A program made the position numbers and the translations under genes. 64,000 nucleotides of DNA from Nodosilinea sp. P-1105 (GTDB taxonomy: Bacteria > Cyanobacteriota > Cyanobacteriia > Phormidesmidales > Phormidesmidaceae), in the NCBI RefSeq assembly GCF_012911975.1, contig NZ_SMDQ01000009.1, forward strand, positions 1 through 64,000, given 5' to 3'. A model generated the notes under the pieces. That model made no database searches. It was given only the letters and a program-made list of their open reading frames with translations, and was not told the origin of the DNA. This document shows, in pieces, positions 27,000 to 63,226 of this stretch (position 1 is the first letter of the stretch; every line of letters starts with the position of its first letter).

Positions 27000-27303
27000 C
27001 GACTTCTTTAGCAAGTCGGCCCAGGAACCGGGCTCCGAGTGACCTGTCGATCTTAATGTTTAGGACCACAGGTACGCTTGAAGACCCTTCTGATAAGTAC
27101 ATGGACACAATAACTGACTTGATCCTTGATCCGGCCTTCGACTCCGCTCAGGCCTCGTCGCTGGTTGAGCGGAGTCGAAACCAGGGCATTGAATTAAGGC
27201 TGGTGGGCACTTGCCCACCTTACAGCAGATCAAGGCTTTCAGCGATTTTCGAGGACTGTTTAGGGCTTATTTCAGTAGCATTCACCCATACTGTGCCGAC
27301 GCC
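27000..27303. repeat. Intergenic palindromes after tRNA-Pro
   Basis: No credible gene. TTCGACTCCGCTCA (27137-27150) pairs perfectly with TGAGCGGAGTCGAA (27166-27179); this core is a close variant of the hairpin inside the 121-bp MITE at 50884 and 62584. A second small palindrome GGTGGGCA/TGCCCACC lies at 27202-27219. A short frame across the tRNA is spurious. Confidence 0.7.
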
Positions 27304-37504: not shown

Positions 37505-37613
37505 GGAGATTTCTGAGAAAGATAATCCCGCTTATTGTCAGCGATCGTAGCTTTCGTAGGGTGGGCATTGCCCACCACTCGGTAGAAGGTTTCCTGGAAG
37601 TCACCTTAGTCAT
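37505..37613 (-). repeat. Dispersed repeat C, copy 1
   Basis: About 105-bp element centred on the palindrome GTGGGCATTGCCCAC. It is the inverted counterpart of 40534-40639, sharing TCTACCGA, CTACGAAAGCT and CGATCGCTGAC when reverse-complemented. It follows directly after hairpin repeat A, copy 3. Confidence 0.8.
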
Positions 37614-40533: not shown

Positions 40534-40639
40534 CTTAGGTAACTTCTAAGAAACTGTCTACCGATTGGTGGGCATTGCCCACTCTACGAAAGCTGCGATC
40601 GCTGACTTAACGCGAAGATCTTCTTTCTCGAAAGTCACC
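40534..40639 (+). repeat. Dispersed repeat C, copy 2
   Basis: Inverted copy of 37505-37613, centred on GTGGGCATTGCCCAC, sharing TCTACCGA, CTACGAAAGCT and CGATCGCTGAC. It is located just downstream of the rpsF stop codon. Confidence 0.8.
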
Positions 40640-50757: not shown

Positions 50758-51169
50758 GGCTAAAGAGGGTGAGCTAGAGCAGCATTGATCGTCGATTGGG
50801 GTCAGTCGCCAAGCACCGAAAATTAGGGGGCTGGGAACCATGGGCGAAGTGAGTGGTGGCAGGAGCCAGTGACCTGGGGGTAAGGGACGTGCAGGAAAAT
50901 AAACTACCCGCTGATCGGGCCTCGACTTCGCTCAGCCCTCGATCCCTGAAGGTTGAGCGAAGTCGAAACCTGGCCACTGGGTACACTATTAACCCGCAGA
51001 TCCCTAAGGTCACTGGGGTACAGTTTATGGCCTGCCTTAAGCCTGAAACCGTGAATCCTAATAGCTAGTCACCTTGAGCGTGACCGTTTCTTATCCTTAG
51101 TTTTCCTTGGTTTATTAGAGTATTTAGCCCTAGCCTGGATTGTATGAGCTGGCACACTCTCATAAAGAT
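50758..51169. other. Intergenic region holding MITE copy 1
   Basis: About 410 bp between two minus-strand genes. The centre is the 121-bp MITE (50884-51004); the remainder has no recognised gene. Confidence 0.6.
50884..51004. mobile_element. 121-bp MITE, copy 1
   Basis: Identical over its length to 62584-62704. Ends GGGACGTGC and GCAGATCCC are imperfect inverted repeats (7 of 9). It is flanked by TAA on both sides (50881-50883 and 51005-51007), a 3-bp target duplication. Internally TCGACTTCGCTCA pairs with TGAGCGAAGTCGA, forming a long hairpin. Too short to encode a protein, so it is non-autonomous. Confidence 0.92.
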
Positions 51170-56761: not shown

Positions 56762-57319
56762 ATGGCAGACCCTGTTACCCTTCAGGATATCTACGACCTA
56801 TTCAAAGCCTCCCAGGCCGAATTGCAAGCCTCACGGGAAGAGTTTGATCGGCGCATGGCCAAACTAGAACAAGTTACCGCCAACACCAGCCGAGAATTGG
56901 GGCGTTTGGGCGATCGCTGGGGCACGTTCGTAGAAAACTTGGTAGAACCAGCGGTGCTGCGGTTGTTTCAAGCGCGGGGCATTAACATTCAATCGACCTA
57001 CCGCCGTGCTAAGTCAACTCGCTCTGTAGCCCCTATGGAAATCGACATTCTTGCCGTCGATGGCGATGTTGCCGTAGCAATTGAAGTCAAATCCCGACTG
57101 AGCCAGCAAGATGTGGATGATTTGTGTGAAAAGCTTCAGAAATTTAAGCTAGCTTTTCCAGAACAGTCTCAGCATCAGGTGTATGGAGCCGTTGCGGCCA
57201 TTGAGTTTGTTCAGGACGTGGACCGCTACGCCTACCGCAAGGGGCTATTTGTCATCCGGCAATGCGGCGATTCGGTGGAATTAGCTAATGATACTGTTTT
57301 TCAGCCCAGAGCCTGGTAA
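56762..57319 (+). CDS. DUF3782/PD-(D/E)XK-like protein, copy 1
   Basis: 185-residue protein with an N-terminal coiled coil (SQAELQASREEFDRRMAKLE) and a nuclease-like core. The core reads WGTFVENLVEPAVLRLFQ with Glu58, and MEIDILAVDGDVAVAIEVK with Asp95, Glu108 and Lys110, the PD-(D/E)XK pattern of DUF3782-type proteins. Nuclease activity is inferred only. A close paralogue is at 57763, and the upstream 50 bp are also alike, so the pair arose by duplication. Function unknown. Confidence 0.78.
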   Translation: MADPVTLQDIYDLFKASQAELQASREEFDRRMAKLEQVTANTSRELGRLGDRWGTFVENLVEPAVLRLFQARGINIQSTYRRAKSTRSVAPMEIDILAVDGDVAVAIEVKSRLSQQDVDDLCEKLQKFKLAFPEQSQHQVYGAVAAIEFVQDVDRYAYRKGLFVIRQCGDSVELANDTVFQPRAW

Positions 57320-57762: not shown

Positions 57763-58353
57763 ATGGCAGACCCTGTCACCCTTCAAGACATTTACGACCT
57801 GTTCAAGGCATCCCAGGCTGACTTGCAAGCCTCGCGGGAAGAATTCGACCGGCGTATGGCAGAGTCTAAAGCCGAAGCCGATCGGCATATGGCAAAACTA
57901 GAACAACTCGCGGCCGACACCAGTCGAGAAGTGGGGCGTTTGGGCGATCGCTGGGGCACGTTTGTAGAAAATATGGTCGAACCAGCTGTGCTGCGGATGT
58001 TTCAAGAGCGGGGCATTGATATCCAAACGACTTACCGCCGAGCCAAGTCAACCCGCCCTGCAGCCCCTATGGAAATCGACATTCTGGCCGTCGATGGCGA
58101 TGTTGCCGTGGCAATTGAGGTCAAATCTCGCTTAGCCCAACAGGATGTAGATGATTTTTGCGAAAAGCTGAAGAAATTCAAGTTGGCTTTTCCAGAACAG
58201 GCCTCTCATCAGGTGTATGGCGCCGTTGCGGCCATTGAGTTTGTTCAGGACGTGGATCGCTACGCCTACCGCAAGGGGTTATTTGTGATCCGACAATGTG
58301 GCGACTCGGTGGAACTGGCCAATGATCATAGCTTCCAGCCCAGAGCCTGGTAA
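57763..58353 (+). CDS. DUF3782/PD-(D/E)XK-like protein, copy 2
   Basis: 196-residue paralogue of the protein at 56762, with about 11 extra residues in the coiled coil (MAESKAEADRHMAK). The core MEIDILAVDGDVAVAIEVK and the C-terminus SVELANDHSFQPRAW are nearly the same. It keeps all three putative metal-binding residues. The duplicated block includes the leader with GTCAGGCATAATGGGAG, which may be the promoter (-10 CATAAT). Role unknown; see copy 1. Confidence 0.78.
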   Translation: MADPVTLQDIYDLFKASQADLQASREEFDRRMAESKAEADRHMAKLEQLAADTSREVGRLGDRWGTFVENMVEPAVLRMFQERGIDIQTTYRRAKSTRPAAPMEIDILAVDGDVAVAIEVKSRLAQQDVDDFCEKLKKFKLAFPEQASHQVYGAVAAIEFVQDVDRYAYRKGLFVIRQCGDSVELANDHSFQPRAW

Positions 58354-62163: not shown

Positions 62164-62424
62164 CTATAACGCCCCCAGATTAGCCAGGCCCAAAATCACT
62201 CCAGCCCCGATCAAGTGACCAAAGCTGGCCGTCCCCAGCACCGCTGGTAGCCCAAAGCCGCCAAATAGCTGCGGGGAGGGCATAGCTGGCTCAGCACTGG
62301 GGTACTTGATGGTCAGCTTGCCAAAGGCGATCGCCAAAATGTTGCACACAATCATTACCACCGCCACCTTAGGACTCCAGGTTAAGGTGTTGGGTACTGC
62401 CGCTAAAACAGGTAGAAATGCCAA
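62164..62424 (-). CDS. psaK: Photosystem I subunit X (PsaK)
   Basis: Two-helix PSI subunit at the periphery, involved in state transitions and antenna contact. The conserved core is LTWSPKVAVVMIVCNILAIA, then GKLTIKYPSAEPAMPSPQLF, GGFGLPAVLGTASFGHLIGA and a final LGLANLGAL. I start at TTG 62422-62424 because GGAGG lies seven bases upstream, giving an 86-residue precursor, the usual PsaK size; the frame also extends upstream to 62499. It is far from psaFJL and monocistronic. Hairpin repeat A follows directly. Confidence 0.9.
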   Translation of the reverse strand: MAFLPVLAAVPNTLTWSPKVAVVMIVCNILAIAFGKLTIKYPSAEPAMPSPQLFGGFGLPAVLGTASFGHLIGAGVILGLANLGAL

Positions 62425-62467
62425 AATACAGCCTCCAAGAACGCACAAAAACGCAATGTCATGGGCG

Positions 62468-62499
62468 CGTCCCGCTGGGGCACCGTCCCGCTGGGGCAC
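62468..62499. repeat. 16-bp direct repeat
   Basis: CGTCCCGCTGGGGCAC occurs twice in tandem (62468-62483, 62484-62499), in the psaK leader. No function assigned. Confidence 0.85.
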
Positions 62500-62583
62500 A
62501 GCCCATACTAGGCTTACTCTTCCATGAGCCCAGGGCTCTGAGGGATTAGCTGTTGCAAGACTTTACAATTTGAACAGAGCTTA

Positions 62584-62704
62584 GGGACGTGCAGGAAAAT
62601 AAACTACCCGCTGATCGGGCCTCGACTTCGCTCAGCCCTCGATCCCTGAAGGTTGAGCGAAGTCGAAACCTGGCCACTGGGTACACTATTAACCCGCAGA
62701 TCCC
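62584..62704. mobile_element. 121-bp MITE, copy 2
   Basis: Identical to copy 1 at 50884-51004, same orientation. It is flanked by TTA on both sides (62581-62583 and 62705-62707), a 3-bp target duplication different in sequence from copy 1 (TAA) but of the same TNA form. It lies between the divergent psaK and a small membrane-protein gene. Confidence 0.92.
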
Positions 62705-62752
62705 TTACTTCCTCCATTGGCCAGTGCTCAATAGGAAGTATTTGATCTGACA

Positions 62753-63226
62753 ATGCTGTTGTTAGCGTACATCGTCAGCGAGGATAAACCAGACCTTATG
62801 GAACGAGGATTGATGTGGTTGCCCCTGCTAGGTACTTTTATCTGGTTAGCCTGGGCGGGCTGGCGCGAGTACCAAAAGCTACAGGCCTATGAGGCCTGGG
62901 CTGCCGATTTTGACCGGGGCAAGTACGACATTCGGGCCGTATTGGCCCAGTCTGGGGCTACCCTGGTCTGGGGGCAGCCTACCCCCCAAGGACCGATTAA
63001 TCTACAATCCGTTGATCTACATGACGTAGACACCATTCAAGTGCAGGTGAATCGTCAACCACTTCCCCCCAAGACCCTGGTTAAACGGGGACAAGCCATT
63101 GAATTAGTCTTACTTCTGGCCAACGGTTCAGACTATCGAATTCCCTTTATTGACTGTGATATGGCGAATCAATGGGAAAAAGCGTTGCAGGAATCGCTAC
63201 AAACGCTAAAATCGGCATCAACCTAG
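62753..63226 (+). CDS. Conserved membrane protein upstream of ftsQ
   Basis: 157-residue protein with one N-terminal membrane helix (LMWLPLLGTFIWLAWAGWRE) and a soluble C-terminal beta domain: YDIRAVLAQSGATLVWGQ and LVKRGQAIELVLLLANGSDY, ending QWEKALQESLQTLKS. I have seen similar genes next to ftsQ in cyanobacteria; function unknown. A second ATG (MERGLMWL) 15 codons later could be the true start. It is directly upstream of ftsQ (38 bp), so co-transcription is likely. Confidence 0.7.
   Translation: MLLLAYIVSEDKPDLMERGLMWLPLLGTFIWLAWAGWREYQKLQAYEAWAADFDRGKYDIRAVLAQSGATLVWGQPTPQGPINLQSVDLHDVDTIQVQVNRQPLPPKTLVKRGQAIELVLLLANGSDYRIPFIDCDMANQWEKALQESLQTLKSAST

Follow-up and report, generated by a model that had tools for sequence, protein, structure and literature searches.

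A 121-bp sequence is found twice, letter for letter, in the window analysed here (the whole stretch of 64,000 nucleotides, part of contig 185 of G000, a 6.0-Mb draft cyanobacterial genome), which raises the question of what kind of element it is and which transposase moved it. The most probable answer, to which we assign a probability of about 0.9, is a MITE of ISAzo13 descent, as judged from its ends and its TWA (TTA or TAA) target duplication, moved in trans by an ISAzo13 transposase. In the mechanism proposed, the MITE ends would be those of one cyanobacterial branch of ISAzo13 insertion sequences (IS) of ~1.3 kb, the ISAzo13 transposase would bind these ends in trans, and the element would move by DDE-type transposition, inserting at TWA and duplicating it.

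The 121-bp elements and their insertion sites

The sequence-only reading had described two identical copies with imperfect inverted-repeat ends and 3-bp duplications at both sites. Direct inspection bore this out: the copies agreed across all 121 bp (Table 1), started with GGGACGTGC... on one side and with GGGATCTGC... on the reverse strand at the other, within imperfect 25-bp terminal repeats (consensus GGGAYYTGCNNGNNAATANNNTACC), and were flanked by TAA/TAA and TTA/TTA, respectively. The first 23 bases were found at two places in the window with at most 3 mismatches, against none in 100 shuffles. The element equalled its own reverse complement at 80/121 positions without gaps, compared with a mean of 30.4 and a maximum of 50 in 1000 shuffles, and its single-strand fold was 4.75 sd better than those of 200 shuffles. 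Coding capacity was absent, as in none of the six frames did an open stretch exceed 40 codons. The window copies are thus MITEs: short, gene-less and near-palindromic elements with terminal repeats, placed at unrelated sites.

Table 1. Positions of the elements, their parts and neighbouring reading frames in the window, and loci of the 35-bp forms in other genomes.
Feature	Position or locus	Strand	Remark
121-bp MITE, copy 1	50884..51004	+	direct reading; site empty in G013
Target duplication TAA, left of copy 1	50881..50883		direct reading
Target duplication TAA, right of copy 1	51005..51007		direct reading
Terminal repeat GGGACGTGCAGGAAAATAAACTACC, ISAzo13-type end	50884..50908	+	22/25 identical to Rhizonema IS end
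Terminal repeat GGGATCTGCGGGTTAATAGTGTACC	50980..51004	-	20/25 identical to each SM1_4_3 IS end
Central hairpin CTCGACTTCGCTC...GAGCGAAGTCGAA of copy 1	50921..50967		folding
121-bp MITE, copy 2	62584..62704	+	same letters as copy 1
Target duplication TTA, left of copy 2	62581..62583		direct reading
Target duplication TTA, right of copy 2	62705..62707		direct reading
Central hairpin of copy 2	62621..62667
psaK-like ORF adjoining copy 2	62164-62499	-	Pfam PF01241
ORF on the other side of copy 2	62753-63226	+
101-bp element, second MITE family	37505..37605	+	TTA/TTA
102-bp element, second MITE family	40538..40639	+	TTA/TTA
35-bp forms	L135, L138, L139, L144, L164		G032
35-bp form	L284		G256, distant genome

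Across the genome, three identical 121-bp elements were counted, together with four related elements of greater length (146-150 bp) on contigs C1, C108, C101 and C140. The third identical copy lay at C2:88471-88591 between TTA and TTA, flanks that were read from a scan in which equal TWA flanks were required. Six of these seven copies had equal TTA or TAA flanks, the exception being the C1 copy (TTA/TCA). Beyond this genome, equal 3-bp flanks were observed in 52/65 distinct related elements, a set limited to lengths of 60-220 bp and to loci from six genomes, many of them preselected for TNA or TWA at one end with the match of the second flank left free. All 52 duplications were TTA or TAA, so that the 3-bp duplication claimed earlier held and its TNA target was narrowed to TWA.

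The movement itself was visible in G013, the congener with the best match to the window flanks, in which both window sites lacked the element. At the site of copy 2, G013 carried a single TTA between flanks 90-92% identical to those of the window, and the surplus in the window was exactly 121 bp plus one TTA. At the site of copy 1, the flanks were 85-88% identical, and the triplet was a single TAG where the window has TAA twice. Since both sites were empty in G013, the window insertions postdate the split from this relative, in agreement with the recent movement previously deduced from copy identity; precise loss from G013 instead of insertion after the split is less likely.

Copy 2 sits in the upstream region common to the psaK-like ORF and the plus-strand ORF, and an effect of this copy on psaK expression is possible, considering its position. 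Elsewhere in the window, the ORFs at 56762-57319 and 57763-58353 (MADPVTLQDIYDLFKASQA...) are closely similar neighbours, an apparent tandem duplication.

Insertion sequences with the same ends

Full-length elements with the MITE end type were found in several cyanobacterial genomes. A 1325-bp element flanked by TTA/TTA, present in G269 and G275 (one of this length is that of Leptolyngbyaceae SM1_4_3), departed from the MITE end pattern at 1 position on one side and at none on the other and contained two overlapping ORFs of 160 and 242 aa, which matched PF07592 (5.9e-7 and 1.1e-59) as well as NF033519 and corresponded to two parts of one ISAzo13 transposase. G269 contained another element, of 1316 bp (TTA/TTA), with the same layout and more diverged ends; three such elements in G336, two of 1314 bp (TTA/TTA) and one of 1304 bp (TAA/TAA), also had more diverged ends, and a broken one in G032 (1320 bp, TAA/TAA) had 4 mismatches at each end. 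Hormoscilla GUM202 harbored eight copies of 1321 bp, of which seven were identical and the eighth differed at one base, and in 7/8 of them the 25-bp ends were perfect inverted repeats. The 397-aa transposase ORF of one Hormoscilla copy scored 252.5 bits against NF033519, above the curated ISAzo13 cut-off of 200 bits; the part-ORFs of split transposases, scored alone, stayed below 200 bits. A further PF07592 match for the transposase of the proposed parent reached 1.6e-78. The MITE ends and the best IS ends compared were identical at 20-22 of 25 positions, and beyond the ends nothing in common was seen between the window MITE and the ISAzo13 IS compared.

The association was also observed when loci were drawn by protein, the query being derived from the elements of G269 and G336. 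Eighty of 186 relatives were kept, 12 of which had insufficient flank, and ends at the resulting 68 ISAzo13 loci were chosen by sequence alone, without looking at the flanks. The MITE end type was present on both sides, with at most 4 mismatches to the pattern at each end, at 36 distinct sites; it was different or missing on at least one side at 31/68 loci, and one locus was a duplicate. Equal 3-bp flanks were seen at 33/36 sites and TWA at 29/36, these sites not being independent of one another, as they included eight from Hormoscilla GUM202, four from Leptolyngbya PCC 7375 and the G269/G275, G336 and G032 elements. In an earlier set of 30 ISAzo13 loci, the MITE-type end pair was found at five, showing four elements. 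As a control, the end pair was looked for at 40 loci of other transposases, where it occurred once, at a MITE with a nested IS, and in 300 block shuffles, where it did not occur. Among 16 genomes selected chiefly because they matched the MITE, 13 had a PF07592 match. Duplications of 3 bp are attributed to the ISAzo13 family in a published account (PMC10045372).

At 26/36 ISAzo13 sites, the upstream open stretch of the catalytic frame did not exceed 76 codons, and the transposase is therefore encoded in two frames there; a single frame was found at 10/36 sites (155-169 codons), namely those of Hormoscilla and one archaeal locus. In both G269 elements, the second frame was -1 relative to the first and an A7 run lay near the junction, which suggests programmed -1 frameshifting; the Hormoscilla copies also showed A7 close to this point, but their frame was uninterrupted. 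The transposases of L356, L339 and L344 were in two frames split near CTAAAAAAAC, and this region is a likely frameshift site.

The parent named by the sequence-only reading was an IS5-family element of the IS1031 group. IS1031-type elements duplicate TNA, which would fit such a parent, IS4/IS5-like transposases were present in the genomes searched, and one IS5-like element even sits inside a MITE copy of G032. Nevertheless, the ends of this nested element matched the MITE ends at only 7-8 of 25 positions, and none of 40 DDE_Tnp_1/DDE_Tnp_4 loci of G000 and G032 had MITE-type ends of its own, a sample comprising 10/10 DDE_Tnp_4 and 30/56 DDE_Tnp_1 matches of these two genomes. IS4/IS5-type parents (PF13359 and PF01609 in both genomes) had been considered on the ends of these loci, and none fitted. 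The MITE ends were found instead on ISAzo13 elements: the full-length IS that combined such ends with TWA encoded ISAzo13 transposases (PF07592, NF033519), so that the ends lead to a parent of another family and the IS5 attribution, now very improbable, was abandoned.

Two further readings concern the way in which the copies moved. The identity of the three copies, all in one genome, could also have arisen by gene conversion or recombination between repeats and not by transposition; this is hardly credible given the different flanks of the copies, the separate TWA duplication at each of them and the empty sites that correspond to both window copies in G013. A REP- or SDR-like palindrome, whose hairpin would be the mobile signal recognised by a single-strand (HUH/RAYT) transposase, is suggested by the nearly full palindrome and by the recurrence of the central hairpin in repeats with other ends. 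To our knowledge, however, HUH transposition leaves no target duplication, in contrast to the equal 3-bp flanks of 52/65 elements; moreover, the ends match DDE-type insertion sequences, and it is the internal sequence that varies and the ends that are kept, which makes a single-strand mechanism most unlikely. ISAzo13 descent thus remains the preferred reading.

Distribution and forms of the family

The 147-bp form of the element matched 17/57 genomes, its own included, at E <= 0.001, part of these matches being to the central hairpin alone. The end pattern TWAGGGAYYTGCNNGNNAATANNNTACC was found in 25/388 cyanobacterial genomes (own included), and its reversed version in none of the 388; in the Leptolyngbya genome G032, a looser pattern gave 87 matches against 7 for the reversed control. 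In the plasmid collection, one full-length MITE was detected, a 121-bp relative of 79% identity with unequal flanks (TTA/TAA) on Nostoc C057 plasmid p057_G, besides one weak partial match in Treponema; the phage collection gave no match to the MITE. An ISAzo13 gene lies ~2 kb from the Nostoc MITE, and the only visible end of its element differs from the MITE end pattern at 1 position; one plasmid can therefore carry both.

MITE variants differed in their inner hairpin modules and kept their ends. The lengths in G032, obtained in part in the scan that required equal TWA flanks, included 35, 87, 93, 98, 121, 136-154 and 198-211 bp. A length of exactly 121 bp was found for 1/38 elements of G032, 4/6 of G022, 6/8 of G047 and 2/7 of G049, and this recurrence in other genomes led us to give up the idea that the 121-bp form had recently arisen from the 146-bp form by deletion. 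Nested arrangements were also observed in G032. A 1203-bp element (L083), tried as a candidate parent, turned out to be a MITE with an IS5-like element inside (L083:239-1441, PF13359, GACYTGTTGTGAAATA ends), and a smaller element with like ends was likewise inside a MITE at L087.

In the 35-bp forms, a full 25-bp end is joined to 10 bp from the opposite end, and TWA lies on either side; a strict pattern for them was found at five places in 2/388 genomes. It is doubtful that they are mobile units in their own right, in G032 and in the distant G256. Alternatively, they may have arisen within longer copies by deletion between short repeats (GCGGGT or GATC), and their movement is left unclaimed because this reading also fits. 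Were they mobile, their size would place them with the smallest DNAs moved by a transposase, and their two transposase sites would overlap.

The hairpin was not confined to this family. At 27094-27190, what appears to be another repeat in truncated form, TAAGTACATGGACACAAT... (compare L009/L010), carried the GACTCCGCTCA...TGAGCGGAGTC hairpin that is also present in the 121-bp MITE, and the hairpin module seems to be common to repeats with unrelated ends.

A second family, apparently of ISAzo13 type to judge from its ends, is also present in the window. A scan with the end type of a different ISAzo13 branch (GGNRAYTTCYNNGAAA) recovered the 101-bp and 102-bp elements of Table 1 and, in 399,555 further bases of G000, two more elements with TTA/TTA and TAA/TAA flanks. 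The seven end pairs that it gave comprised these four elements, one chance 39-bp pair and two pairs in which one of the four elements was given a different left end; the reversed sequence gave none. One end of the 101-bp element (GGAGATTTCTGAGAAAG...) was identical at 22/25 positions to an ISAzo13 IS end of SM1_4_3 (L341, whose flanks are unequal, TAA/TTA), and another second-family end at 19/25 to an ISAzo13 end in Leptolyngbya RL_3_1. More diverged ends were seen in the 102-bp element, which reached at best 17-18 of 25 identical positions with the IS ends compared. ISAzo13 parentage is less certain for this family than for the 121-bp MITE. Its elements have an inner GTGGGCATTGCCCAC hairpin.

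Source of the transposase and comparison with known systems

A profile search of the draft genome of the window (PF07592) found no ISAzo13 transposase; the window copies would therefore have been moved by one that is not visible in the draft. Probable reasons are that the transposase has since been lost, that its gene is missing from the assembly or that it was present only transiently, possibly on a visiting plasmid. PF07592 matches were likewise absent from G013 and G049, though both carry such MITEs. Within the genus, 14/26 genomes had PF07592 matches, many as fragments, and at none of the 12 genus ISAzo13 loci scanned were equal flanks found together with the MITE end type at both ends. 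A locus in G021 came nearest, with 4 and 6 mismatches and unequal flanks; in G025, an element flanked by TAA/TAA had the second end type. The window thus presents MITEs in a genome without a detectable ISAzo13 transposase, one of them adjoining a psaK-like gene.

These results give a cyanobacterial MITE family a likely parent in place of a guessed one, and that parent belongs to a little-studied family. The ends, the duplications, the 397-aa transposase, the eight near-identical Hormoscilla copies and the many MITE forms together offer a test bed for end recognition by ISAzo13 transposases. The kind of element is ordinary, a MITE, and its ISAzo13 parentage is strongly supported; no ISAzo13-derived MITE was encountered in the limited literature searched.

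The SDRs of cyanobacteria, attributed to Elhai in 2008, are said to be very small mobile palindromic repeats nested in other repeats, and in being small, palindromic and nested they reportedly resemble the elements studied here. The 121-bp elements, set apart from SDRs by description, have IS-type ends and lie between target duplications. The MITE also resembles the cyanobacterial branch of ISAzo13 IS (for example those of Hormoscilla GUM202, SM1_4_3 and Fischerella PCC 9431), which has the same 25-bp end type and TWA duplication; unlike these IS, the MITE has no transposase, and its ends are identical to theirs at 20-22 of 25 positions. Nezha (Zhou 2008) is also a cyanobacterial MITE, reported to be moved by an ISNpu3-like IS with like ends (PMC3049150). 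The parent named there for Nezha differs from ISAzo13, a comparison with the 121-bp MITE made by description only.
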